Shown piece after piece: positions 1 through 12,895 of a stretch of DNA of 64,000 nt. The notes beneath the pieces are model-generated. The model was not told the DNA's origin. It searched no databases and saw only the letters and a program-made list of their open reading frames with translations. Position 1 is the first letter of the stretch; the number at the start of each line of letters is the position of its first letter. Both the position numbers and the translations under genes were made by a program. The stretch comes from Streptomyces sp. SN-593 (lineage in GTDB: Bacteria; Actinomycetota; Actinomycetes; Streptomycetales; Streptomycetaceae): the NCBI RefSeq assembly GCF_016756395.1, contig NZ_AP018365.1, positions 1,054,001 through 1,118,000 on the forward strand, read 5' to 3'.

Positions 1-1560
1 GCGCACCTCGCCCTCCGCCAGGGGGACCAGGCCGAGCAGGGCCTGGACCAGCGTGGACTTCCCGGCGCCGGAGGCTCCGACCACGCCGACGAACTCGCCC
101 GGTCCGACGTCCAGGTCCACGCCCCGCAGCAGGGCCGCGCCGCCCGGGGCGCGTACGCCCACCCCGCGCAGTGCCAGCCGGCGGGCGGGGGGCACGGCGG
201 CGCCGGCGGGCTCCGCCTCCAGCCCCACCACCTCCAGCAGCCGGTCCACGACGGGGACCACGCCGAAGACGGCGGTGGCGATCCGCCCGGCCTGGCCGAC
301 GGAGCCGATGAACTGCGTCAGGGCGATGTTGAGGGCCAGCAGGCCGCCGGCGCCCGGGTACGCGGTCCCCAGCAGCAGCGGCGCCCCCAGCAGCAGGGCG
401 TAGAGCAGGCCCGGAAGGGCCGCCGTGAGCCCGCTGGCGGCGGACTGCCAGCCCACCGCCGCCAGGTCCTGCCGCTTCTGCTCCGCGAACACCTCCAGCC
501 AGCGGCCGAAGGCGCGTTCCTCCCGCCCGGCCACCCGGATCTTGTCCAGCCCGCGCAGCATTTCCAGGAGCGTCGACGACGCCTCCCCGTAGAGCGCGAA
601 CACCCGGCGGTCATGGCGGAGTTGGCGCATGCCGAACCAGCCGGAGAGGGCGGCGGCGGCGAGTACCAGGGCGAGGGCGGGCAGGCTCGGCAGCGGCGCC
701 AGCACGATGACGACGACGAGGCTCGCGGCGCCGAACAGCAGGTTCAGGAGGGCCGACAAGGTGGTGTTGCCCAGCATCTGGCGCACCGCGTCGACTCCGG
801 CGACCCGCACGGCGAGGTCGCCGGCGGTGTACTCGCGCAGCCGCCAAGCCCGCGTCCGCAGCAGCCGGTCCAGGGCGGCGGGCCCGAGGACCGCCTCGGC
901 GTAGGACTCCAGCCGGGCCAGCACCAGGTTCCGCAGCCAGACCAGGCCGGCGTAGACGCCCAGTCCGAAGCCGGCCAGGACCGCCAGCTCGCCGAGGAGT
1001 CCGGTACGGTCCCCGAGCACCGCGGACAGGGCGAGGGCGCCCGCCGACGGCAGGAACGCGCCGAGCACCGCGGCGGCCAGGCCGGCGGCCAGCAGCAGGG
1101 CCAGGTCCCCGCGCCTGCGCCCGTGGGCCGCCAGGTCCCGGGCCCGGCGCGCCTCCAGCGGCCGTGTCACCTCCCACGCCCACGGCGTCAGGTCGGCGGC
1201 GGTGGCCGCGTCCACCCGCCCGATCGCGCCGTGGCCCGGCAGGACCAGCCGGAAGGAGCGCCCGCGGGGCAGGAGCGCGACGGGCGAGCCGTCCCGCCAG
1301 TAGCCGAGGAGGGGGTGCAGCGGGGTGCGGTGCCAGTCGTCGGCGAGCGTCACCACGCGGGCTCGCAGCCCGAGCGCCTCGAAGGCGCCCTGGACGTCCG
1401 CCGGGCCCTCCTCGTCCCGTGTCCCGGACCGGTCCGCCGCGGGGGCGGCGCCGAGGTGGGCCGCCACCTCCTCGACGCAGCCGCGGGGCGGGGCGGCGGA
1501 CACCGGGGCTCCGGCCCGGAACCGGTCCAGCGGGGAGAGGGGCGAAGCCGCGGCGCTCAC
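1..1560 (-). CDS. NHLP-type bacteriocin-export ABC transporter, permease/ATPase subunit (3' end beyond window)
   Basis: The frame is open from a GTG at 1560 to base 1 (520 codons, no stop), so the gene is cut by the window edge. The protein has an N-terminal region of about 150 residues without the peptidase Cys, then hydrophobic segments, then a nucleotide-binding domain with Walker A GASGAGKST close to the edge. The ABC signature and Walker B lie outside. The start overlaps the stop of the C39 transporter by GTGA, so the two are translationally coupled. In NHLM export systems such an ATPase without peptidase pairs with a peptidase-bearing ATPase and a HlyD-like protein, and exactly those neighbours are present. 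It should act in the cytoplasmic membrane exporting the peptide encoded at 6111-6437. The substrate is inferred. Confidence 0.8.
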   Translation of the reverse strand, partial: MSAAASPLSPLDRFRAGAPVSAAPPRGCVEEVAAHLGAAPAADRSGTRDEEGPADVQGAFEALGLRARVVTLADDWHRTPLHPLLGYWRDGSPVALLPRGRSFRLVLPGHGAIGRVDAATAADLTPWAWEVTRPLEARRARDLAAHGRRRGDLALLLAAGLAAAVLGAFLPSAGALALSAVLGDRTGLLGELAVLAGFGLGVYAGLVWLRNLVLARLESYAEAVLGPAALDRLLRTRAWRLREYTAGDLAVRVAGVDAVRQMLGNTTLSALLNLLFGAASLVVVIVLAPLPSLPALALVLAAAALSGWFGMRQLRHDRRVFALYGEASSTLLEMLRGLDKIRVAGREERAFGRWLEVFAEQKRQDLAAVGWQSAASGLTAALPGLLYALLLGAPLLLGTAYPGAGGLLALNIALTQFIGSVGQAGRIATAVFGVVPVVDRLLEVVGLEAEPAGAAVPPARRLALRGVGVRAPGGAALLRGVDLDVGPGEFVGVVGASGAGKSTLVQALLGLVPLAEGEVR

Positions 1561-3758
1561 CGGTCGCCCACCCTCGCCGCTCGCGCCCCGGCCAGCGGGC
1601 CGGTGGCGGACCGGCCGGCGGGCGGCGTTCCGCCGGGCGGACCCGTAGGGGCCGGGCCGGACGGCGTCACACGGCCTTCGCGCACGACCAGTTCGCGGTC
1701 GCACGCCCGCACCGCCGAGCGCCGGTGGGCCAGCATCACGACCGTCACGCCGCGCCGCCGCAGCCGGGCGAAGAGCTGCTGCTCCACGGCCCGGTCCAGC
1801 GCGCCCGTCGCCTCGTCGAGGACCAGGAGCGACGGGTCGCAGGCGAGCGCCCGGGCGATCTCCAGGCGCTGCCGCTCACCGCCGCTGAAGTTGGCGCCGC
1901 CCTCGTCGACCACCGCCCGGTGGCAGCCGCCCCGGAGTTCGACCACACGGTCCAGGCAGGCGTCGTGGACGGCCCGTTCGATCGCCTCGTCGCTCACCGT
2001 CTCGTCCCACAGCGCCACGTTCTCCGCCACCGTTCCCGCGAACAGCTCGATGGTCTGGTCCACCCAGGCGACGCTCCGCACCAGCTCGCCCCTGGGCCTC
2101 TCGTCCGACGGCCGGCCGTCGAGCAGCACCCGGCCGGTCAGCGGGGCCAGCACCCCCGCCGCCAGCCGCGCCAGCGTGGTCTTGCCGGCACCGGTCGGCC
2201 CGGTGATCGCCACCCACTCCCCCGCCGCCACGTCGAGGTCCACCTCGCGCAGCACCGGCCGGCCCGGGGCGTACCCGGCCGTCACCTGCTCCATCCGCAA
2301 CGAGCCCCCGGCGCGCGCACCGGTGTCCGGCTCCACGGTCCGCACCGCGGACGGGTCGTACGGCTCGGCGAGGAGGTCGTCCAGCAGCCCGATGCGGGTG
2401 AGCAGTCCGGGCACCGCGAGGAGCCCGCCGACCGCCGTAGCGGCCGCCGCCGTGAACCCGCCCGTCAGGCTCTGCACCGCGAAGAGCGCGCCGAGGGTCA
2501 TGTGCAGGTGGAGGATGCGCGGCGCCGCGGCCAGGACGACCAGCGACGAGGCGCCCACGGTCAGCACCGCCGGCAGGGCGGTGAGCGTCTGCTGCTGCCG
2601 GTTGTGCACCGACGTGGCGCGCACCGCGACCGCGTGCAGGCTGCTCCACCGACCGGTCACCTCGGCCTCGCCGCCGCCCGCCTTGACCGCGTCCAGCGCC
2701 CTCAGCGCCGCGAAGCCCGCCGCGTCCCGGCAGGCGGTCAGCCGGGCCTCCACCAGCGCGGCGGCGGACTGGCGCCGCCAGCTGGTCAGCGGCACCCCGA
2801 CCACCAGCAGGCCGAGTCCGACCGCGAGGCCGCCGACCACGGAGTCCTCGCGCACGATCACCGTGCCGAGCAGGGCGGCGTTGACCACCGCGCCCGCCGC
2901 CGGCACCAGTTGGTGCACGAGGCCCAGGCTGAACGCGTCGACGGCCTGCGCCCGGGCCGCCATCGCACCCGGGTCGCGCCGCAGCAGGGTCCGTCCGTCG
3001 ATGTGCAGCAGCCGCCACACCAGGTCCACCGACATCGTCAGGGACTGGCGCACCTGGAGACGGCCCAGGAGCTGGTTCTGCGCGGCCACCGCCAGCCCGG
3101 ACACCAGGCCCACGGCCACCGTGACCGCGTAGAGCCGCAGCCCGCCGCCGGACCCTCCCGACACCGCGTCCGCGGCCAGGAGCTTCAACACCATCGCCAG
3201 CAGCAGGGACATGGCCCCGCCCACCAGGGACAGCGCGACGGCGCACAGGACGCCCGGCCACTGGGCGGCCAGCGCCGCCGCCAGCCGCCGGCCCGCGGTG
3301 CCGCGCGGCCCGCCCCGGGTGAACTCCGCGCCCGGCTGCGCCGTCAGCAGCACCCCGCTCAGTTCCGGTGCCAGTTCGGCGAACGGCATCCGGTGCCGGC
3401 CGATCGCGGGGTCCACGACGGTCACCAGGTCGCCGCGCACCCGCTCGACCACGACGAAGTGGCCGTCCGCGAGATGCGCCACCACCGGCAGCGCCACCGT
3501 AGCGAGGCCGGAAGGGTCGGGGACGCCGTCGCGCCACGGGACGGTGATCCGTACCGCCGAGGCTCGAAGACCCTGGTCCCGGGCCGCGCGCAGCCAGGTC
3601 AGCGCGTCGACGCCGTCCCGGGACGCGCCGGTGGCCTCGCGCAGGTCGCGCAGCGGCACGCGCCGGCCGTGGCAGGCCAGCACGGACGCGAGGCAGGCGG
3701 GCGCGCAGTCGGTCTCCTCGGCCTGCGGCACGTAGGGGACGCGGAGGGTGCGGCTCAC
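1557..3758 (-). CDS. NHLP-type ABC transporter with C39 leader peptidase domain
   Basis: The 733-aa protein has three parts. The N-terminus is a C39 papain-like peptidase with the nucleophile Cys in ETDCAPACL and the His/Asp region GHFVVV...VVDPA. A multi-spanning membrane domain follows (about residues 150-440). The C-terminal ATPase has Walker A GPTGAGKTT, signature SGGERQRLE and Walker B LLVLDEA. The family cuts leader peptides after a double-Gly motif and exports the core in the same cycle. The putative substrate at 6111-6437 has such a GG. The start is GTG at 3758, overlapping the HlyD stop by GTGA, and its stop overlaps the next ABC gene the same way. The last 35 residues or so are Pro/Gly-rich with no known role. 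Motifs are clear; the peptide substrate is inferred from context. Confidence 0.9.
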   Translation of the reverse strand: MSRTLRVPYVPQAEETDCAPACLASVLACHGRRVPLRDLREATGASRDGVDALTWLRAARDQGLRASAVRITVPWRDGVPDPSGLATVALPVVAHLADGHFVVVERVRGDLVTVVDPAIGRHRMPFAELAPELSGVLLTAQPGAEFTRGGPRGTAGRRLAAALAAQWPGVLCAVALSLVGGAMSLLLAMVLKLLAADAVSGGSGGGLRLYAVTVAVGLVSGLAVAAQNQLLGRLQVRQSLTMSVDLVWRLLHIDGRTLLRRDPGAMAARAQAVDAFSLGLVHQLVPAAGAVVNAALLGTVIVREDSVVGGLAVGLGLLVVGVPLTSWRRQSAAALVEARLTACRDAAGFAALRALDAVKAGGGEAEVTGRWSSLHAVAVRATSVHNRQQQTLTALPAVLTVGASSLVVLAAAPRILHLHMTLGALFAVQSLTGGFTAAAATAVGGLLAVPGLLTRIGLLDDLLAEPYDPSAVRTVEPDTGARAGGSLRMEQVTAGYAPGRPVLREVDLDVAAGEWVAITGPTGAGKTTLARLAAGVLAPLTGRVLLDGRPSDERPRGELVRSVAWVDQTIELFAGTVAENVALWDETVSDEAIERAVHDACLDRVVELRGGCHRAVVDEGGANFSGGERQRLEIARALACDPSLLVLDEATGALDRAVEQQLFARLRRRGVTVVMLAHRRSAVRACDRELVVREGRVTPSGPAPTGPPGGTPPAGRSATGPLAGARAARVGDR

Positions 3759-4750
3759 CAGTGCCCTCCCGTCAGCTCGTCCAGGGGGTGCACCGATCCC
3801 GTCCGGACCCGCGCGATCACCGGTACCAGCGCCGGGAGTTGGGACGCCACGTCGCCGCTCCCCAGCCCGATCCGCGCCGCGCCGGCGACCAGCGCGTCGT
3901 GGAGGTCCACCGTCACCAGGCGATACGGGCCGTGCCCGCTCACCGCGAGGGAGGCGGACAGCCCGCCCAGCATCCGGCTGACCTCCGCGGCGGTGACCGG
4001 GTAGCGCCCCACCGAGCCGACCTCGCCGCTCACCGAGACCGCCGACTGGTCGGAGGACAACTGGGCGCTGACCGCCGCCCCTTCGGTCACCGGGAAGCCG
4101 CGGTCGCTGCCGAGGAACATCCAGGCGCGCAGGCCCCCCGAGCCGCTATCCACGGACACCACCGGCGTGCCCGGGGAGACCGCCGTGCCCGGAGCCGAGA
4201 CGATGCCCAGCACGCTGCCGTCGACGGGTGCGAGGACCGCACGGGTGCCGCCTCCCGCGACGGCGACCTGTCCGACCCGCTGGCCGGAGCGCACCGCGTC
4301 GCCGGGCGCGACGTCCACGCTCAGTACGGTTCCGGTGACCGGGGAGGCCACCGGCCTCGGGCCGCTGCCGTGCACCAGCACGCCCTCCAGCCGGACGGTC
4401 GACTGCACCGTGCCGATCGCCGCCCAGGACACCAGGCCCGCGACCGCCGCGAGCACCACGGCCAGCGCGGTCAGCAGGCCCGGGGGCACCAGGGTCATCC
4501 GCTGGCCGGCGATGCGCGCCGCCGACGCCAGCCGCTCCTGCGCCCGCGCCTCGGCGGCGGCTTCCTGCCCGGCGATGGCTTCCTGCTCGGCGGTGGCCTT
4601 CTCCTCGGCGGCGGTTTCCTGCCCGCCCGGCGCTCCGGTCCCGGCCGTGCCGTCCGCCTCGACCCCGTGCTCCGCCTCGGCTGCGGCCACCCGTCCCGTC
4701 CGGGCCGCGCCCCGCGCGTCGTCCGCCGTTCCCCTGCCGTGCTCGGACAT
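3755..4750 (-). CDS. HlyD-like secretion (membrane fusion) protein of NHLP export system
   Basis: The 331-aa protein has a long charged N-terminus rich in Glu/Ala (about residues 1-90), one transmembrane segment (about 93-115, LLTALAVVLAAVAGLVSW) and a lipoyl/barrel-sandwich region typical of HlyD adaptors (VASPVTGTVLSVDVAPGDAVRSG, then a second half-motif APVDGSVLGIVSAPGTAV). These adaptors link an ABC exporter to the outside face of the membrane; NHLM loci carry one with two ABC subunits. The ATG at 4750 is chosen because it overlaps the P450 stop (ATGA). A longer open frame upstream runs antiparallel through the P450 frame and looks artefactual. The stop overlaps the C39 transporter start, so all of these genes are coupled. 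Confidence 0.85.
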   Translation of the reverse strand: MSEHGRGTADDARGAARTGRVAAAEAEHGVEADGTAGTGAPGGQETAAEEKATAEQEAIAGQEAAAEARAQERLASAARIAGQRMTLVPPGLLTALAVVLAAVAGLVSWAAIGTVQSTVRLEGVLVHGSGPRPVASPVTGTVLSVDVAPGDAVRSGQRVGQVAVAGGGTRAVLAPVDGSVLGIVSAPGTAVSPGTPVVSVDSGSGGLRAWMFLGSDRGFPVTEGAAVSAQLSSDQSAVSVSGEVGSVGRYPVTAAEVSRMLGGLSASLAVSGHGPYRLVTVDLHDALVAGAARIGLGSGDVASQLPALVPVIARVRTGSVHPLDELTGGHW

Positions 4751-6027
4751 CACTCGCCCCCCGCGGGACGGTTCGCGCCGTCGTGGGCGCTCTCCCGGCC
4801 GCCCGGCGCGGGCGTCGGGTCCGGCTCCGGCTCCGGCTCCGGCGGGAGCTCGCGCACCGGCAGACGGGACCAGCCCTGGACCGCCGGCGACCGGTGCGGC
4901 ACGGCACCCGGCAGAAGGGCGAGCCTTCCCGGCCGCCCGGCCAGGAACCGCAGGAACTCCGCGCCCGCGAGGTCGGCGTGGTGCATGCCCAGGCAGATGT
5001 GGGGGCCGTGCCCGTAGGCGAGGGCGGCCTCCGGGCCCGTGCGGGGGCCGGGGCCGGCGTCCTCGCCGGCGAGCGCGGAGGCCAGCAGCAGCACCACCGT
5101 CTGCCCCGCCGGGAGGGCGAGGCCGCCGACCGACGCGGGGCAGGCCGCCCGCCGGGCCAGCATCCTCAGCGGGCTCGCGGCCCGCAGGGTGGAACGGAAG
5201 GCGTCGTGCGCCCGGTCCGGCTCCTCGCGCAGCCGGGCCAGCAGCTCCGGCTCGGCTGCGGCCCGGTGCGCCGCCTGGGCCAACGCCTGGCTGAGGGTCT
5301 CCAGCCCCGCCGTGAGCAGGAGTACGAAGAGCGCAAAACCCTCTGCCTCGTCGGCGGTCCCCGTCCGCACGGCCTCGCCGACCGCGTACAGCGGCCCGCC
5401 GTCCGCGGCCGCCAGGGCACCCCTCACGTACCGCCGCAGCGCGGCGAGTTCGCCGGCGAGGGCGTCCGCTTCCTCCCCCGAAGGGCCGGCTCCGGGACCG
5501 ATACGGTCGCGCAGCAGCCGCGCCCAGCGCTCCAGTTCGTCGGCGTCCCCGGCGGGCAGTCCCATGACCAGGAGCGCCAGTCGCACCGGCAGGCGGTCCG
5601 CGTAGCCGCTGACGAAGTCGAAGCCCTCGCCGGCGTCCGCCGGCCACGTCCGCTCGACCGCCTCGGCGATGGCGGCGCGCGCCGCCGACGCCCGGCGCCG
5701 GGTGAAGTACGGCGCGACCAGGCGGCGCAGCCGGGCGTGTGCCGACCCGTCGCGCAGGCTGGGCATGGCCCGGAACACCGCGTCGAGGTCGTCGTGCGGG
5801 CTGATCCGCAGCGCGGGCAGCCTGCCGTCGCCGTCCCCGACGACCAGGCGTGGATCGCCCAGCGCCTCGCGCGCGGCGTCGGCCCGTGCCACCACCGTCA
5901 GCCCGGTGCCCGCGTGGAGGGCGGGCCAGCGGCGGGCGACGGACGGACTGAGCGTCGGACGCCGGCCGGCCAGGCACGCCAGGACCTCGCCGACCGCCGC
6001 GGAGGTCGGGTTCGCGGTCTCCCCCAT
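4750..6027 (-). CDS. Cytochrome P450, probably RiPP-tailoring, atypical ExxR
   Basis: The 425-aa protein has the P450 heme-ligand motif in the form AYGHGPHICLG (Cys ligand present, usual Phe replaced by Tyr) and an I-helix AGLET with the acid-Thr pair. The K-helix ExxR, almost invariant in P450s, reads STLR here: the Arg is kept but the Glu is replaced by Ser. The ANRDP-like segment after it is replaced by a Gly/Pro-rich stretch, and the tail is a Pro/Glu repeat. The gene follows the precursor-peptide gene after a strong hairpin and overlaps the HlyD gene by ATGA, so it very likely belongs to the same operon and may hydroxylate or crosslink the peptide. No ferredoxin is nearby, so its redox partner would come from elsewhere. 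The ribosome binding site is weak. Confidence 0.8.
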   Translation of the reverse strand: MGETANPTSAAVGEVLACLAGRRPTLSPSVARRWPALHAGTGLTVVARADAAREALGDPRLVVGDGDGRLPALRISPHDDLDAVFRAMPSLRDGSAHARLRRLVAPYFTRRRASAARAAIAEAVERTWPADAGEGFDFVSGYADRLPVRLALLVMGLPAGDADELERWARLLRDRIGPGAGPSGEEADALAGELAALRRYVRGALAAADGGPLYAVGEAVRTGTADEAEGFALFVLLLTAGLETLSQALAQAAHRAAAEPELLARLREEPDRAHDAFRSTLRAASPLRMLARRAACPASVGGLALPAGQTVVLLLASALAGEDAGPGPRTGPEAALAYGHGPHICLGMHHADLAGAEFLRFLAGRPGRLALLPGAVPHRSPAVQGWSRLPVRELPPEPEPEPDPTPAPGGRESAHDGANRPAGGE

Positions 6028-6053
6028 GGGCTGTTCACGCTCTTCCGTCAGTG

Positions 6054-6083
6054 CCGGCGGGCAGGGTTCGCCCTGCCCGCCGG
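6054..6083 (-). terminator. Perfect 13-bp hairpin between RiPP precursor and P450 (partial terminator)
   Basis: The arms 6054-6066 and 6071-6083 are exact reverse complements (CCGGCGGGCAGGG) around a 4-nt loop, CGAA on the transcribed strand. The hairpin sits 28 nt after the precursor stop and 27 nt before the P450 start, with no U-run. Such hairpins after precursor genes commonly protect the upstream mRNA or partly terminate, giving more precursor than enzyme. That role is inferred here. Confidence 0.65.
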
Positions 6084-6110
6084 CGGCGAATCACCGGCGG
6101 GGCCGGAGGA

Positions 6111-6437
6111 TCACGACACGGGCAGGGTGGGCTGCGAGCCGCAGCAGGTGCCGGACCCGACGGTGCTCGCGGTGCAGCCGGGACAGGAGAACGAGCTGGC
6201 CGAGCCGCAGGTGCTCAGGCCGCCGACGGCCCCCAGCAGCCCGAGGGACTCGTCGCTGATCTCCTCGACCGGAGCGGGCGGCACCGGCAGTGCCTCCTGC
6301 GCGCTGATCCCGTACTCGGCGAGCACCGCGACCGGCTCGTCCCGGTAGCGCGTCGCGAGTTCCTCGTCGCTCCAGAGCTGTGCCACGAGAGCACCGAAAC
6401 TGCGTCTTTCCTCGGCGGTCAGCTGGATGTCGGACAT
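6111..6437 (-). CDS. RiPP precursor peptide with nitrile-hydratase-like leader and Cys/Ser/Thr-rich core
   Basis: The protein has 108 aa. Residues 7-45 match the pattern of nitrile-hydratase-alpha-like leader peptides (LVAQLWSDEELATRY, then DEPVAVLAEYGI). An acidic, Pro-containing spacer leads to GAVGG, with GG at 72-73 as the likely C39 cleavage site. The predicted core is 35 residues (74-108) with 5 Cys (77, 85, 88, 98, 99), 9 Ser and 5 Thr, including TCC and CPGC, ending PTLPVS. This suits thioether, azole or dehydro-amino-acid chemistry. The modifying enzyme is not in the window, so the class (lanthipeptide or azol(in)e-type) stays open. The ATG at 6437 was chosen; an in-frame GTG lies 6 nt upstream, and both have weak ribosome binding sites. 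It is the first gene of the leftward operon and diverges from the LuxR regulator. Confidence 0.85.
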   Translation of the reverse strand: MSDIQLTAEERRSFGALVAQLWSDEELATRYRDEPVAVLAEYGISAQEALPVPPAPVEEISDESLGLLGAVGGLSTCGSASSFSCPGCTASTVGSGTCCGSQPTLPVS

Positions 6438-6865
6438 CGACACGTCCAATCTCGGATCGGGGTCCCGGGCCACACGGCCCGGGGACCAGGCAGGTGGCTT
6501 CCACCGATCGGGGCCCGACGGCCCCGTACCGTGCGGAACGCGAAGCGGAATCCCCGTATCCGGGTCCGCCGAGACGGAAATGTGGCACAGCGCGTCCCTG
6601 CCCGACATCGGGGAAACCCCTACGCGCGACCCCAACACCGCTTCCGGCGTGCGGGGTTGGCCCTCCTTCTCGGCACGGCAGCGGCCGTCGTCCCCCCGAA
6701 AGGGGGTGCGGGAACGGCGCGCGTGTGACGGACGGGAGGCAGGTGACGGAATGGAGTCAGGTGGGGACAGGACCTGTCCGGCGACCCGCGACAGCCGCCC
6801 TGACCGTGGGTAAGGTGCCGTGTGTCCGCCAGGGGAAGGCGGAGACCGGCAGGGGGAACGAAGAC
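6438..6865. promoter_or_regulatory. Divergent promoter region with three short palindromes, RiPP operon / LuxR regulator
   Basis: This 428-bp gap separates the precursor gene (leftward) from the LAL regulator (rightward). No convincing protein is encoded in it. It holds three perfect inverted repeats: GGTGG-CTT-CCACC (6493-6505), GGGGAAACCCC (6610-6620) and CCCCCGAAAGGGGG (arms 6693-6697 and 6702-6706). The G-run/C-run palindromes resemble the kind of site bound by LuxR/LAL-type HTH proteins, such as the regulator next door, but no regulator is shown to bind them. A possible -10 element for the regulator (TAAGGT, 6811-6816) has no good -35. GGGGGAA just before the TTG at 6866 is the ribosome binding site that decides that start. 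Confidence 0.5.
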
Positions 6866-9649
6866 TTGACCAGTCCGCCGCGGATATCACCGGAGCACGC
6901 GTCCGTCGGCACCCGGCAGATCGTCGGCAGACACGCGCACCTGGACCGGCTGCGCGCCGCACTCGACGAGCCGGGCCCACGCGGAACACTGCTCGAACTG
7001 CCGGGGGAGCCGGCTTCCGGGAAGACCAGACTGCTGGCCGCCTTCCGGGAGGAGGCGAAGGCGCGGGAGGTGCCGGTGTGGACGGCCTCGGGCGCCCTGC
7101 ACGGCGCCCGCCCGGGCGGTGGACGGCCGCGCGCGGGCGCCGCCCCGCCTGTCCGGCACCCCGCCGGCGCACCGGACGGCCGGGGCGGCGCGGGTGCGGA
7201 CCTGCGGGCCGCCTTCGCCGCGGCGACGGGCCCCGGCGGCACCGGCCTGTTACTGCTCGACGACCTGCACGCCGCCGACCGGCGCTCGGCGCAGACGCTC
7301 GCCGCGCTCCTGCGGGACCCGGTGCCCGGACTGGTCGTCGCCGCCGCGTACCGTCCGCGCCAGTGCCCGCCCTGGGTGCGGTCGGCGCTGGAGGGCGGGG
7401 CCACCGCCTCGTGGCGGCTGCCGGTCGGTCCGCTCTCGCGCGCCGACGCGGCGCTGATGGCGCCGGGCCACCCCGCCGCCTCCGTCGACCGGGCGCACGC
7501 CCTCTCCCAGGGGCTGCCCGGGTACGCGGCGGCCCTGCTCCGCGAGGCGGAGGGCGCCCCGGCCCCGGACTTCCAGGAGGAGCCGGTGCCCCTCCAGGTC
7601 CCGGGCCTGGACGCGGAACTCGCGGCGCTCGGCGAGGACGAGCGGCAGGTGCTGGACATCGCCGCGGTGCTGGGGGAACCGGTCGATCCCGGTCTGCTCG
7701 TGGCCGTCGCCGCCAGGAGTCCGGCGCACTGCGCCCATGTCGTGGACCGGCTGGCGGCGCTGGATCTGCTGCGGCCCTACCCCGACCCGCCCCACGCGTG
7801 GGGGTTCCGCCATCCGCTGGTGCGCGCCGCCTGCTACCACCGGGTGCTCCCCGGGCAGCGGTGGCTGCTGCACACCCGGGCCGCCGCGGTGCTGCGGCGC
7901 CGGGCCGCGCCGCTCACCGAGATCGCCGAGCACGTGGCGCGCGGCGACTGCGGCTCGGACCCGCACGCCGCCGCCGACCTCGCCGCGGCCGCCCACGACG
8001 TGCTCCCCACCCGCCCGGACCGGGCCGCGCGCTGGCTGCGGACCGCGCTCCGGCTGACCAGGGACCCCGCGGGCCGGGCGGGCATCACCCTGGCCCTCGC
8101 CGAGGCCGAGATGGCCTCGGGGCGGCCCTGGGTGAGCCGCACCCTCCTGACGGACATGTGCGCGGCCCAGGGGGACCAGCACCAGCTCACGCTGGCGAGG
8201 CTGGCGCACTCCCGGGCCGAACTGATGATGGGACGGCCCCGCGAGGGGTACGTGCCGCTGCGCCGGGAACTGCCCCGCGCCGAACGCGTGGGCGGGGCGC
8301 TGGGGGTGCGGGTCGCCGCGGAGGCGGCCGTCTGCGCGGTGCTGGACGGCAACCGCGACGCGGTCCGGCACCTCGAACTGGCGTCCCGCCTGCTGCCCAG
8401 CGCGCCCGCGGCCGCGTTCGACACGCGGCTGGCCGTCATCGAGGCGTTCACGGCCGCCTACGTCGGCGGCATCCCCGCGGTCGGCGGGCGGCTCGCCTCG
8501 GCGGCCGCCGTGATCGACGAGCGCTCCGACGACGAGTGCGCCGCCGACCTCGGCACGCTGACCCTGCTGGCCTGGGCGGAGACCATGCTGGAGCGCGACG
8601 GCGAGGCGCTGCGGCACTTCGCCCGCGGGCTGCGGGTGACCGACCGGGGCGGTCCCCGGGCACTGACGCCCTACCTGCTGGCGGGGCAGGCCCACGCGGC
8701 GGCCCGGCAGGGCCGCGTCGAGGCGGCCCTGGCCGCGGCGGCGGAGGCCCGCGGCGCCGCCCGCCGGATGGGCAACGCACCGCTGGCGGAGTTCGCCGAC
8801 GTCACGCACGCGGCCTCGGTCGCGCGCCGCGACGGCTCCACCGCCGCCACGCCCACCCCCGTGGCGGGCGCCGGCGGGTCGCCCCCCGACGCGGGGAGCT
8901 GGTTCGCCGCGATGACCGCGCGGACGGCGGTGCGCCTGCGGTGGGAGCGGGGCGATCCCGCCGTGACCACGGAGCTGCTGCTGCGGGCCTGCGGCGGCGC
9001 GGAGTTGCCGCGCGTCGAGGCGTGCGGAGCCGCGTACTGGGCGGGCGTGCTCATGGACCTGGCGCTGGCCCGGGGGGACACCGTCCAGGCCGCCGGGTGG
9101 GCGCGGACGGCCGAGGAGCGGGCCGAGCAGTCCGGGCTGGACGGGCAGCGCGGCCACGCGCTGGCGTCGCGCGCCCGGCTGGAGGCCCACAGGGAACGGC
9201 CGACGACGGCGGCGGCGCTCGCGGCCGGGGCGGCGGAGCGTTTCGCCGCCCTGGGCTTCCTCCATGACGAGGCGTCGGCTCGGCTGGTCCGCGCCCGCGC
9301 CCTGGGAGACCTGCGGGAGTGGCGTGAGGCGGAGGTCGAGATGGCGCAGGTGCGGGTGATCGCCCAGGCGACCGGTTCGCGCGCGCTGTTGGGGGTCGTC
9401 GTCACGGAGCAGCGCCGGGTCGGCGCCTGCGCCGGCCGGCAGTCCGCGCCCGCCTCGCCCGGCCATCTGGGACTGACCCGCCGCGAGTGGGACATCGCCC
9501 GCCGGGTGGCGGCGGGCGCCAGCAACGCCGAGGTGGCCGCGACGCTCTACGTCTCGGTCAAGACCGTGGAGTCCCACCTGACGAGGATCTTCCGCAAGTT
9601 GGGCATGACCTCCCGCAACGGCCTGGCGGCGGCCCTCACCGTCGCCTGA
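6866..9649 (+). CDS. LAL-family LuxR regulator with AAA ATPase domain and TTA codon
   Basis: The 927-aa protein has an N-terminal P-loop ATPase with Walker A GEPASGKT (residues 47-54) and Walker B LLLLDD (about 128-133), a long helical TPR-like middle, and a C-terminal LuxR HTH (LTRREWDIARRVAAGASN, then VSVKTVESHLTRIFRKLG). This is the large ATP-binding LuxR architecture common as pathway-specific activators in Streptomyces. The TTG at 6866 is chosen for AGGGGGA spaced 8-9 nt before it; the open frame runs further upstream through non-coding palindromic DNA. Codon 129 (7250-7252), inside Walker B, is TTA, the rare Leu codon read by the bldA tRNA. It is divergent from the RiPP operon and followed by a strong terminator, so it is probably the cluster regulator. 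Confidence 0.85.
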   Translation: MTSPPRISPEHASVGTRQIVGRHAHLDRLRAALDEPGPRGTLLELPGEPASGKTRLLAAFREEAKAREVPVWTASGALHGARPGGGRPRAGAAPPVRHPAGAPDGRGGAGADLRAAFAAATGPGGTGLLLLDDLHAADRRSAQTLAALLRDPVPGLVVAAAYRPRQCPPWVRSALEGGATASWRLPVGPLSRADAALMAPGHPAASVDRAHALSQGLPGYAAALLREAEGAPAPDFQEEPVPLQVPGLDAELAALGEDERQVLDIAAVLGEPVDPGLLVAVAARSPAHCAHVVDRLAALDLLRPYPDPPHAWGFRHPLVRAACYHRVLPGQRWLLHTRAAAVLRRRAAPLTEIAEHVARGDCGSDPHAAADLAAAAHDVLPTRPDRAARWLRTALRLTRDPAGRAGITLALAEAEMASGRPWVSRTLLTDMCAAQGDQHQLTLARLAHSRAELMMGRPREGYVPLRRELPRAERVGGALGVRVAAEAAVCAVLDGNRDAVRHLELASRLLPSAPAAAFDTRLAVIEAFTAAYVGGIPAVGGRLASAAAVIDERSDDECAADLGTLTLLAWAETMLERDGEALRHFARGLRVTDRGGPRALTPYLLAGQAHAAARQGRVEAALAAAAEARGAARRMGNAPLAEFADVTHAASVARRDGSTAATPTPVAGAGGSPPDAGSWFAAMTARTAVRLRWERGDPAVTTELLLRACGGAELPRVEACGAAYWAGVLMDLALARGDTVQAAGWARTAEERAEQSGLDGQRGHALASRARLEAHRERPTTAAALAAGAAERFAALGFLHDEASARLVRARALGDLREWREAEVEMAQVRVIAQATGSRALLGVVVTEQRRVGACAGRQSAPASPGHLGLTRREWDIARRVAAGASNAEVAATLYVSVKTVESHLTRIFRKLGMTSRNGLAAALTVA

Positions 9650-9772: not shown

Positions 9773-12700
9773 TCAGGCGTAGTAGCCGAACAGGTCGGCG
9801 ACGACGTCCACGGAGCCGGCGCTCGCGTGGAAGTCGATCTTCCCGTCGACCACCGGGACGGTCACGAGGTTCGCGATCGTCTGCCCGGCCGACCAGTTGA
9901 GGTTGGACGAGGTCGGTCGCGCCTGGCCGTCGGGCCACACGGTGAGCACACCGCCGGTGGTGCCGTTCACCACCGTCACGTTGAGGACGACGGCCTTGGC
10001 CCCGGCCAGCGCGCCGCCGTCGGCGAGGCTGAGCGCGAGCGAACCGGTGGAGCTGAGCTTGCCGATGCTGGGGGCGCCGGTCCCGGTGCGGGTGTCCAGC
10101 AGCCGGACCGGGGCGGCCGGGTGGAACAGCGCGCCGCCGGCGTCGGCCCGGTAGTAGCCGAACACGTCGGCCACGAAGTGGGTCGTGCCCGAACTGGCGT
10201 TGTACAGGTCCACGGTGCCGTCCGCGCCGACCGGCACGATCACCAGGTTCGGCACCGACTTGCCCGCGATCCAGTTGAGGTTCGAGGAGTCGGGCCGGGT
10301 GGTGCCGCCCGGGTAGGCGATCAGGTGCCCGGCCGCCTGCTCGCCGGTGGCCGTCACGTTGAGCACCACCGCCGTGGCCCCCGACGCGGGCACGCCGCCC
10401 GCTCCGGCGACCTTGAGCGCCACGGTGCCGTTCGCCTTGACCGGGGTCGTGGTGGTGACGCCGATCTTCGACCGGGTGTCCAGCACCCGGGCCGGACCGA
10501 CGGGGTAGTACGTCGCGCCGGACGGGTCGGTGGAGAAGTACCCGAAGGCGTCGGCCACGAAGTGCACGGTGCCCGAACTGGCGTTGACCAGGTCGATCCT
10601 GCCGTCGTCGCCGACCGGCACGATCACCAGGTTCGGGATGTTGCGCCCGGGCGTCCAGTTGAGGTTGGACGAGGTGGGCTCGGTGCCGCCGTCGGGGTAG
10701 GCGATCAGGTGGCCGCCGGTGGTCTCCGCGGTGGCGGTGACGTTGAGCACGACGGAGGTCACGCCGAAGGACGGGACCGCGCCGCCGGCGCTGCCGGCGA
10801 CCTGGAGGACCACCTTGCCGCCCGGAGCGACCGGAGTGGTGGTGGCCACGCCGATCGCGGCGCGGGTGTCCAGCACCCGGGCCGGGTTGACCGGGGTGAA
10901 GGTGCCTCCGACGGTGGTGGAGGTGGCCTTGCACAGCGCGGCGATCGCGGTGCGCGCGTTCTGCGGCGTGCCCAGGCCGGTGGTCAGGTCGTAACCGGTG
11001 CCGGCGGTGTAGAGGCCGGCGGGCAGGACGTTCTGGCCGGGGACGATGTTGTTGCCGTCGACGACGTCGTGGAAGGCGCTCGACGGGAGCCGGTAGAGCG
11101 CGGTGTTGGCGAAGCCGATCGGCCCGTCGGCGGCGCAGCCGAGGTCGAGGTCGGCCTGCGCGGCGAGGGCCGCCCAGGTCGGGGAGGCGCCGCTGGTGCC
11201 GCCGATGACGTACCAGCCCGCGTCCACCTGGTTCTTGGAGGCTTCGCCCCACTCGACGAGGTAGCCGTGGTCCGGGTCGGCCAGCGCGGCCACGTCCGGA
11301 ACCTGCCGGCAGTCCTGGTCCGTGCCGGCGGAGCAGGCGTCGAAGTACCCGGGTCCCCGTCGGCCGGACTGGTAGCCGCTGGCGGAGTCCATCTGGAAGT
11401 ACGACGAGACGCCGCCGCCGGTGGCGCCGCCCTCGCTGTTCCAGACCCGCTGGGTGGCGTTGGAGCCGGTCATGGTCGTGCCGCCGACGCCCAGCACGTA
11501 GGGCTGCCCGGCCGGGTCGTCCACGGCGACCCTGCCGCCGTTCGGGTCGTCGTTGGTGCCGTCGCCGTTCACGTCGTACCAGCAGTCACCGGAGCCGTCG
11601 TCGCCGGAGGCGGCCGTCACGGTCTGGCCCTGGGCAGCGGCCTCGGCGAAGATCTGGTTCTCGGCGTCGAGGTACGCCCGGCTCTGGTCGGCGGTGCAGG
11701 CACCCCAACTGGTCGATATGACCTTGACCTTGTTGTCGGTGACCATCTTCTGGTACACGTCCAGCACGTTCTGGTCGCTCGCGCCCGCCGCGTCGGGGCC
11801 CTCGTAGACGACCAGGGACGCCTGCGGGACCAGCCCGATCAGGTCCTCGATGTCCAGCGCCGACTCCATGCCCACCGCGGAGCCGTACGCGTCGGTCGTG
11901 TCGGCCGGCGCCGTCGGGCCGCCGTCGACCTTGACCGCGCTGACGGAGACCTTCGTGCCGTAGCAGGACTGGTAGGCGGCGATGTCCTGCGGGCCGTAGT
12001 TCTCCAGCTCGAAGATCCCGACGGACACGCCGGTGCCGACGTCCGGCTGGTCGGCCATGCCGTAGGCGGTGGCCAGCGAGCGGGCGCTCCAGTAGTCCTG
12101 GGTGTCGGTGTAACCGGCCGCCGACAGGCCCGACTTGGTGGCCGTGCACAGGCTCGGGGTGGTGCCGGTCACGCGCGGGGTGACGGCCTGGGCGCCGGCC
12201 GTGGAAGCACCGGCCGTGGAGGCGGCGGCCTTCCGCACGTGTGACGACAGGTGCGGGCTGAGGTGCGCGAGCGTGTCCAGGCCGGTGACGCCGGTCACGG
12301 CGGGCGCGGCGTCGGCGGGCAGCGCGGGCGCGGAGGTGTTGAGGATGCCGCGCCGGCCGTCGGGGGCGCGGAAGCCGGTGAAACCGGTGTGCAGCGCCTT
12401 GGCCGCGGTGGCGAGGGTGGTGTGCACGGGCAGCGTGGTGCCGTCGGCCGACAGCGTGCCCACGGTCAGGCCCTGCGCCGTCAGGGCCGCCCGGACCCGG
12501 TTGACGGTCGCGGCGCTCGGCCCGAACTCCGTCTTGTACTGACCGGTCTTCAGGTAGTGGTGGTACAGCGGCGAGCCGGGCGTCGACACGTCCGCGATGA
12601 ACGTCCGCAGCGCGGCCGGGTCGCGCGGTGCCAGTTCGACGCCCAGGTCGATCGGCGTGCCGCCGTCGGGCGCCGACGTCCGCACCGCGCCGTGCGGCAG

Positions 12701-12895
12701 GGCCGGCGCGGTGCCGATCCGCTGCGGCGCGACGGCCGTTCCCCCGCTCCCGCCGTCCGCGACGGCGGCCGGCGCGCCCGCCGCCACCACGGCCAGGGCC
12801 GCCACGGCCACCACCGGGCCGAGCACCCCCCGGCGCCTACTCCCCTGCCGTGCGCGGTCGGCCTCCCGGCCGGTCGCACGCGTGCCTGTCCCCAT
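9773..12895 (-). CDS. Secreted S53 (sedolisin/kumamolisin-like) peptidase with three C-terminal repeats
   Basis: The 1040-aa protein has an Arg-rich N-terminus and hydrophobic signal segment ending near AVADGG. A pro-kumamolisin activation domain follows (about 70-220). The S53 catalytic domain has the Glu/Asp pair in ESALDIED, a SWGAC segment and the Ser motif GGTSGASPTWA. From about residue 655 there are three copies of a module of some 125 residues, each opening with RVLDTR or RLLDTR, containing LNVTA/LNVTV and SNLNW, and ending VADxFGYx. Such modules are common in secreted actinobacterial proteins and are of unclear role. The peptidase should act outside the cell on proteins at acid pH. 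The ATG at 12895 follows a GAAGGAGAA ribosome binding site. The gene is single and ends at the terminator shared with the LuxR gene. Confidence 0.9.
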   Translation of the reverse strand: MGTGTRATGREADRARQGSRRRGVLGPVVAVAALAVVAAGAPAAVADGGSGGTAVAPQRIGTAPALPHGAVRTSAPDGGTPIDLGVELAPRDPAALRTFIADVSTPGSPLYHHYLKTGQYKTEFGPSAATVNRVRAALTAQGLTVGTLSADGTTLPVHTTLATAAKALHTGFTGFRAPDGRRGILNTSAPALPADAAPAVTGVTGLDTLAHLSPHLSSHVRKAAASTAGASTAGAQAVTPRVTGTTPSLCTATKSGLSAAGYTDTQDYWSARSLATAYGMADQPDVGTGVSVGIFELENYGPQDIAAYQSCYGTKVSVSAVKVDGGPTAPADTTDAYGSAVGMESALDIEDLIGLVPQASLVVYEGPDAAGASDQNVLDVYQKMVTDNKVKVISTSWGACTADQSRAYLDAENQIFAEAAAQGQTVTAASGDDGSGDCWYDVNGDGTNDDPNGGRVAVDDPAGQPYVLGVGGTTMTGSNATQRVWNSEGGATGGGVSSYFQMDSASGYQSGRRGPGYFDACSAGTDQDCRQVPDVAALADPDHGYLVEWGEASKNQVDAGWYVIGGTSGASPTWAALAAQADLDLGCAADGPIGFANTALYRLPSSAFHDVVDGNNIVPGQNVLPAGLYTAGTGYDLTTGLGTPQNARTAIAALCKATSTTVGGTFTPVNPARVLDTRAAIGVATTTPVAPGGKVVLQVAGSAGGAVPSFGVTSVVLNVTATAETTGGHLIAYPDGGTEPTSSNLNWTPGRNIPNLVIVPVGDDGRIDLVNASSGTVHFVADAFGYFSTDPSGATYYPVGPARVLDTRSKIGVTTTTPVKANGTVALKVAGAGGVPASGATAVVLNVTATGEQAAGHLIAYPGGTTRPDSSNLNWIAGKSVPNLVIVPVGADGTVDLYNASSGTTHFVADVFGYYRADAGGALFHPAAPVRLLDTRTGTGAPSIGKLSSTGSLALSLADGGALAGAKAVVLNVTVVNGTTGGVLTVWPDGQARPTSSNLNWSAGQTIANLVTVPVVDGKIDFHASAGSVDVVADLFGYYA

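Follow-up and report, generated by a model that had tools for sequence, protein, structure and literature searches.

What peptide is made from a short Streptomyces sp. SN-593 gene encoding an NHLP-type leader and a Cys-, Ser- and Thr-rich tail, and which enzymes make it? The original prediction, drawn from a stretch of 64,000 nucleotides (the window), took the product of this gene for a RiPP precursor with a Gly-Gly site and a 35-residue core holding 14 Ser/Thr and five Cys. Its translation, the family model TIGR04351 and its orthologues bear this out. Gly72-Gly73 stands directly before the core, which has nine Ser, five Thr and five Cys, the latter at positions 77, 85, 88, 98 and 99. For the leader, NCBIfam TIGR04351 (putative TOMM peptide) gives E 4e-12 and 45.5 bits, short of its curated cut-off of 65; for residues 70-97, the thiocillin-family RiPP model NF033482 gives E 3e-4 and 20.9 bits, short of its cut-off of 25. 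There is no Pfam match to the precursor. Judged from these scores, the resemblance to the family models is more than chance.

No modification enzyme was seen at first, because the window begins inside the operon. The original prediction pointed to the left of base 1 as the place for such genes, and there they are, on the same strand: a DUF4135 (LanM-type) dehydratase, a YcaO cyclodehydratase and a SagB dehydrogenase, with 13.7 kb between the far end of SagB and the precursor start (Table). The possibility that 20 kb would hold no modification enzyme is thereby removed. The YcaO protein, which has a TOMM leader-binding domain of its own (TIGR03882, E 2.9e-32), also matches the SagD family (E 1.8e-77); both scores exceed the cut-off. 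At three junctions (P450-HlyD, ABC2-DUF4135 and DUF4135-YcaO) the stop codon of one gene overlaps the start codon of the next, a sign of a single transcription unit. (A 1689-residue frame considered as the left-side gene was rejected: its first 923 residues are wrong, the dehydratase sitting in another frame.) The cluster proteins scanned include neither a radical SAM epimerase nor a methyltransferase, and no LanB-type (glutamyl-tRNA) dehydratase was found among the proteins scanned for it (sets of nine, seven and one). Two other DUF4135 proteins were found in the same genome, far off (C1:33572 and C1:7997226).

Table. Features of the precursor locus; negative positions lie to the left of base 1 of the window.
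Feature	Position	Strand	Size and basis
RiPP precursor gene	6111..6437	(-), 6437 down to 6111	108 aa + stop; translation
NHLP-type leader, residues 1-73	6219..6437	(-)	Gly-Gly at 6219-6224
Predicted core, residues 74-108	6114..6218	(-)	35 aa; translation
Hairpin between precursor and P450 gene	6053..6084	(-)	14-bp stem; folding
P450-like protein	4750..6027	(-)	Pfam p450 E 1.2e-5
HlyD-type exporter adaptor	3755..4750	(-)	HlyD_3 E 9e-8; TIGR03794 E 4e-14, below cut-off
C39 peptidase-ABC exporter	1557..3758	(-)	Peptidase_C39 E 1.4e-24; TIGR03796 E 2.7e-149, below cut-off
Second NHLM-type ABC protein	1..1704, frame continuing to -557	(-)	TIGR03797 E 4.3e-134, below cut-off
DUF4135 (LanM-type) dehydratase	-554 to -3244	same strand	896 aa; DUF4135 E 6e-66
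YcaO cyclodehydratase	-3241 to -5541	same strand	766 aa; YcaO E 1e-94
SagB dehydrogenase	-5639 to -7219	same strand	SagB E 1.3e-37, above cut-off

With a probability that we put at about 0.86, the gene encodes the precursor of a dehydrazole, a linear azole-containing proteusin, processed by these neighbouring enzymes. Dehydrazoles were described in 2023 with carnazolamide of Chryseobacterium carnipullorum (PMC10676384). As reported there, YcaO and a dehydrogenase make eight azoles, after which the DUF4135 enzyme CcaM acts, dehydrating only Ser directly before an azole and needing no leader. The window cluster shares with that system a YcaO gene adjoining the DUF4135 dehydratase gene (an order kept in two further genomes), an azoline dehydrogenase, which is of the SagB family and scores above cut-off, and an NHLP-type leader, though with a match below the curated cut-off, on a Ser/Thr/Cys-rich core. 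The suggestion that this might be an undescribed peptide class thus falls, the set of YcaO, DUF4135, dehydrogenase and NHLP leader being that of the dehydrazoles. One sentence of the same paper refers to a cluster with a P450-like gene in Streptomyces sp. SN-593, perhaps orthologous to the window cluster or to the group B clusters introduced below.

From the genes, their order, their conservation and the catalytic motifs we infer every chemical step of the following pathway. YcaO would bind the leader and convert Cys, Ser and Thr at the middle of core triplets to azolines, which SagB would oxidise to azoles. The DUF4135 protein, as a kinase-type dehydratase, would then phosphorylate and eliminate Ser (perhaps Thr) directly before an azole, leaving dehydroalanine, and the P450 would add an accessory oxidation. 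The C39-ABC protein would cut after Gly-Gly and export the peptide together with the second ABC protein and HlyD. Counting against the dehydrazole reading are the shortened C-terminus of the dehydratase, the replaced His of its kinase site, a triplet periodicity of the core that falls short of significance, and the precursor and exporter scores that stay below cut-off.

The cluster has close relatives. A precursor search of 394 genomes of the family gave matches at E <= 0.001 in 24, the window's own included. The strong ones elsewhere are confined to two genomes of the same genus, G071 and G132, the next best genome standing at E 3.5e-9. Each of the two has tandem precursor copies, ~70% and ~61% identical to the window precursor, and the window's gene order (precursors, P450, HlyD, C39-ABC, ABC2, DUF4135, YcaO, SagB). 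The expectation of a conserved leader holds for these direct orthologues: the five precursors aligned agree at 46 of 73 leader positions, the Gly-Gly among them. It does not hold for group B, whose candidate precursors have a different leader, or for relatives matched through the core only, whose leader is unrelated. The core is largely kept in copy 1 of both genomes (CGSASSxSCPGCTASTxGxGxC). The second precursors (L034:15669-15956 on the minus strand, L033:2993-3280 on the plus strand) have the core LAPACCSSATTIACIGCVMTAC or one close to it, and a second LanM lies divergent from the cluster (L034:16779-19874 on the plus strand; L132 in G071), that of G132 matching DUF4135 and LANC_like (E 1.9e-24). 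Neither second precursor nor second LanM occurs at the corresponding place in the window. In G071 and G132 one leader type perhaps serves two product types.

More distant clusters keep the enzymes. Fourteen of the 35 genomes of the genus have a DUF4135 match. The group B clusters, read over 20 kb around matches in eight of these genomes, carry P450, HlyD, C39-ABC, ABC2, DUF4135, YcaO and SagB in that order at all eight loci, so that at least 11 of the 35 genomes have such a cluster, counting the window, G071 and G132. Six of these loci have short candidate precursors ending SGG-[IL]SVSSLxSAACPVSSFSSxSN; their leader, EQFDIEVEELD[TS]VSGG in L114, L116, L118, L119, L121 and L122, is unlike the window's, and the enzymes are homologous. 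At the other two, L113 and L115, no candidate precursor passed the filter. Group C (G644 and G679, of another family) has the same set with six and four precursor matches; no P450 match lies in the 20 kb read. On a plasmid of Thalassospira marina (Alphaproteobacteria) a related precursor (30% identity, E 6e-12) is accompanied by YcaO, an enzyme of LanM type and a 920-residue protein in which SagB is fused to a P450 (L153:16306-19065); an S53 peptidase gene follows the fusion. No LanM is annotated within 9 kb of the plasmid YcaO matches of Methylovirgula, Nostoc (two), Gloeothece (two), Calothrix, Bradyrhizobium and Streptomyces NBC_01003, which are eight of 40 listed records of 271, the gene table being incomplete. 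Finally, sixteen loci (L035-L040, L042-L044, L046-L052) have a precursor match shortly before YcaO and no DUF4135 match; half of them (8/16) have a P450 match, and they are apparently azole-only relatives.

Export and oxidation functions within the window are as foreseen, with a C39 transporter in the same operon and an NHLM-like exporter. The NHLM/NHLP set is complete (C39-ABC, second ABC, HlyD and a Gly-Gly precursor), all models scoring below their curated cut-offs, and the C39-ABC exporter is expected to cleave after Gly-Gly. The TIGR03797 match begins at residue 80 of the frame of the second ABC protein, whose true start is probably nearer 1470-1560. The P450 is indeed atypical: its heme Cys loop GHGPHICLG is intact, and the Glu of ExxR is replaced, the alignment reading STLR. 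That position reads AALR in G071 and G132 and ECQR in both aligned group B sequences, with the heme Cys loop retained in all five P450s of the alignment. The Thalassospira P450 has an ExxR, reading ECLR, and since it is fused there to SagB, we infer that the P450 acts at the azoline-oxidation stage.

A hairpin after the precursor gene is a usual device for making more precursor than enzyme. Here the 88-nt stretch 6028-6115 folds with a z of -5.4, one of 200 shuffles being equally stable; hairpins also lie behind both precursors in L033 and L034 (G071 and G132), the shuffle control applying to the window's hairpin. The window's hairpin is perhaps an attenuator or an mRNA-stability element. Two neighbouring frames may be recorded. 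A large one at 6380-9649 on the plus strand, divergent from the precursor, is a candidate regulator, its C-terminus resembling by eye a LuxR-type helix-turn-helix. Over 460 residues, the protein encoded at 9773-12895 on the minus strand matches the Thalassospira S53 peptidase at 28%; that it belongs to the cluster is doubtful, because none of the twelve other cluster loci tested has a match to it.

The dehydratase itself repays closer inspection. By alignment, D252/H254, K274, D347, N352 and D364 of CylM correspond to its D300/H302, K322, D397, N402 and D414, and by motif and spacing R506/T512 of CylM would correspond to R552/T558 (residue roles as given in PMC4550811). The LanM kinase site carries a DxH element, Asp347 and His349 in CylM; in the window enzyme it reads DxW. 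That reading stands in all 14 DUF4135 enzymes from YcaO operons (13 from Actinomycetes, one from an Alphaproteobacterium), against DxH in 44 of the 44 other DUF4135 proteins read (43 from Actinomycetes, one from Nostoc), 21 duplicate loci and three duplicate hits having been removed by hand beforehand. The second LanM enzymes of G071 and G132 are of the DxH type, Azospirillum B510 provides one further DxH case, and the nine loci L123-L131, one of them just 7.5 kb long, have no YcaO near their DxH enzymes. In a midpoint-rooted tree of 31 of the sequences (a motif filter passed over five loci, of which Thalassospira was added afterwards) the Trp enzymes form one clade (support 0.999), and DxW therefore counts as one event, not fourteen. 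The replacement is compatible with activity. The CylM H349A enzyme gave little dehydrated product at first and almost full modification after 10 h, D347A and D364A remaining inactive (PMC4550811); the His is therefore helpful, not essential, and a Trp enzyme can be active. The words 'Trp', 'tryptophan' and 'DxH' are absent from the main text of the dehydrazole paper (PMC10676384).

If the dehydratase has decayed, its shortened cyclase part being the mark of that, the product would carry azoles only. Counted beyond alignment column 890, the window enzyme retains 171 residues and its G071 and G132 counterparts 257, against 384-397 for seven enzymes of group B and 344-356 for two of group C (L113, with 159 residues and an apparently broken frame, is left out), so that the C-terminal part is shortened in all three members of the sub-group. 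It bears on this that the dehydration domain of the carnazolamide enzyme, which needs its cyclase-like domain, is reported inactive alone, and also with the cyclase domain supplied in trans (PMC10676384). Against decay, the window protein retains 57% identity to the G071 and G132 dehydratases, the catalytic residues other than the DxH His are kept, and so, in all three, is the C-terminal piece LPDR...DGxPAVVLALLR. We regard a dead dehydratase as very improbable, and see in the sub-group a natural deletion experiment on the parts of the cyclase-like domain that are needed.

With a living dehydratase the product might instead be a class II lanthipeptide that carries a few azoles; the DUF4135 enzyme would then dehydrate Ser/Thr and close thioether rings with the five Cys of the core. 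DUF4135 is, after all, the dehydratase domain of LanM, and a second LanM adjoins the cluster in G071 and G132. Yet LANC_like finds no match in the window dehydratase at E <= 1 (Pfam is weak on such domains, giving E 0.1 for a relative in group B and 1.2e-8 for one in group C), the other DUF4135 proteins found in the genome are distant from the cluster, and the core resembles azole-peptide cores; these considerations leave the lanthipeptide only a shade more credible than decay. Least probable of all is a thiopeptide-like product in which azoles and dehydroalanines are condensed to a central pyridine. The sub-cut-off thiocillin-family match of residues 70-97 speaks for it, but the proteins scanned include no LanB-type dehydratase, and the Thalassospira precursor annotated 'thiocillin family RiPP' also neighbours a LanM-type enzyme, the name therefore seeming to track core type.

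Under the dehydrazole reading the core may be divided as L-STC-GSA-SSF-SCP-GCT-A-STV-GSG-TCC-GSQ-PTL-PVS, a division suggested by the Dha/Dhb-azole-X triplets of which nostatin A is largely built according to its reported structure (PMC11583998). All ten middle residues, T3 to T31, could become azoles, and five first residues (four Ser, one Thr) could be dehydrated. Triplet periodicity is not significant in the window core (lag-3 autocorrelation 0.19; 304 of 5000 shuffles in a comb test). Lag-3 values of 0.0002-0.01 were obtained for L033 copy 1, L041, both group B forms and two group C cores; of the other group C cores two gave 0.013 and 0.039, and four 0.18-0.75. In the comb test, 95 of 2000 shuffles did as well for L033 copy 1, five for L041, 229 for nostatin A and 1455 for Thalassospira, whose core thus clearly fails the test. 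The calculated [M+H]+ of the unmodified core is 3240.36; if the whole triplet reading holds, a product with up to ten azoles and up to five dehydrations would have [M+H]+ ~2950.05 before any change by the P450.

The core also turns up elsewhere. Through residues 57-104, the precursor search matched a second place in G044 and G268 (another genus of the family), where the precursors have an unrelated leader and lie beside a LanB-type dehydratase C-terminal domain, a YcaO and a nitroreductase. The core GSASTASCPGSSAATVGSASCIG (L041 and L045), set against GSASSFSCPGCTASTVGSGTCCG over 23 residues without gaps, scores 82 where shuffles average 34.5. None of 5000 shuffles reaches that score, nor does any of 5000 that permute C, S and T only among themselves and the other residues likewise. 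By the same kind of control the window core is not close to that of group B (0.25 of shuffles score as high) or to five of the eight group C cores (0.07-0.39). A core-profile search gave matches at E <= 0.01 in 19 of the 394 family genomes, the window's own included; G053 and G077 combine the same kind of core with the LanB-type set, and the G138 match looks like a chance frame. LanB-type azole peptide clusters whose cores contain SASTASCPGSSAATVG were noted in four family genomes (L041, L045, L155, L156). The DNA of the two similar cores is identical at 46 of 69 bases, with the same codon at nine of 15 identical residues (no control comparison accompanies these figures), and shows no clear sign of recent exchange between the two genes. 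That such core types resemble each other is already known, the nostatin paper aligning them (Fig. 1 legend, PMC11583998); the close match across two dehydration routes is an addition here. It suggests that selection may act on the core rather than on the pathway.

What keeps enzymes in order when they compete for the same Ser/Thr is the question that azole/dehydroalanine peptides raise, and the authors of PMC10676384 call the basis of the azole preference of TbtB unclear. We offer a speculation, which we ourselves think doubtful: that the Trp of DxW defines azole-dependent dehydratases by stacking on the azole next after the target Ser; only azole-bearing peptide would then be accepted, and YcaO would act before the dehydratase. 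One core could thus be served by a LanM-type machinery with an NHLP leader and by a LanB-type machinery with a short leader. If true, a kinase that reads the product would explain the near-identical core in the two unrelated machineries. Since a single residue separates the YcaO-operon dehydratases from the ordinary LanM enzymes read, the question is testable by point mutation.

Set beside known systems, the window dehydratase resembles the class II LanM synthetases (CylM, LicM2) in its DUF4135 domain and, by sequence, in most catalytic residues; it departs from them in having DxW for DxH and no recognisable LanC domain. The goadsporin/spongiicolazolicin-type clusters (L041, L045, L155, L156), in which the spongiicolazolicin assignment rests on the gene set and reported lengths of 29 and 28 residues and not on sequence, share the core. 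In contrast, their leader is short and unrelated, their YcaO is a different one (~29% identity), and they carry a nitroreductase and the C-terminal domain of a LanB-type dehydratase (PF14028, for which no partner domain was located). Nostatin A of Nostoc, as described in PMC11583998, has in common with the window an NHLP-type leader, YcaO, an oxidase and a LanM-like enzyme; it has a radical SAM C-methyltransferase, an epimerase and a sactionine bond where the window has a P450. The dehydrazoles, compared by their published description, come closest, with NHLP-type leader, YcaO, dehydrogenase, DUF4135 dehydratase and Ser/Thr/Cys-rich core. The window differs in its C39 exporter, carnazolamide having an S8 leader peptidase, in that its scanned cluster proteins include neither a radical SAM epimerase nor a methyltransferase, and in its shortened dehydratase. 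To that description the present analysis adds the DxW signature, the shortened cyclase-like part, a P450 without the Glu of ExxR and a core common to unrelated machineries.
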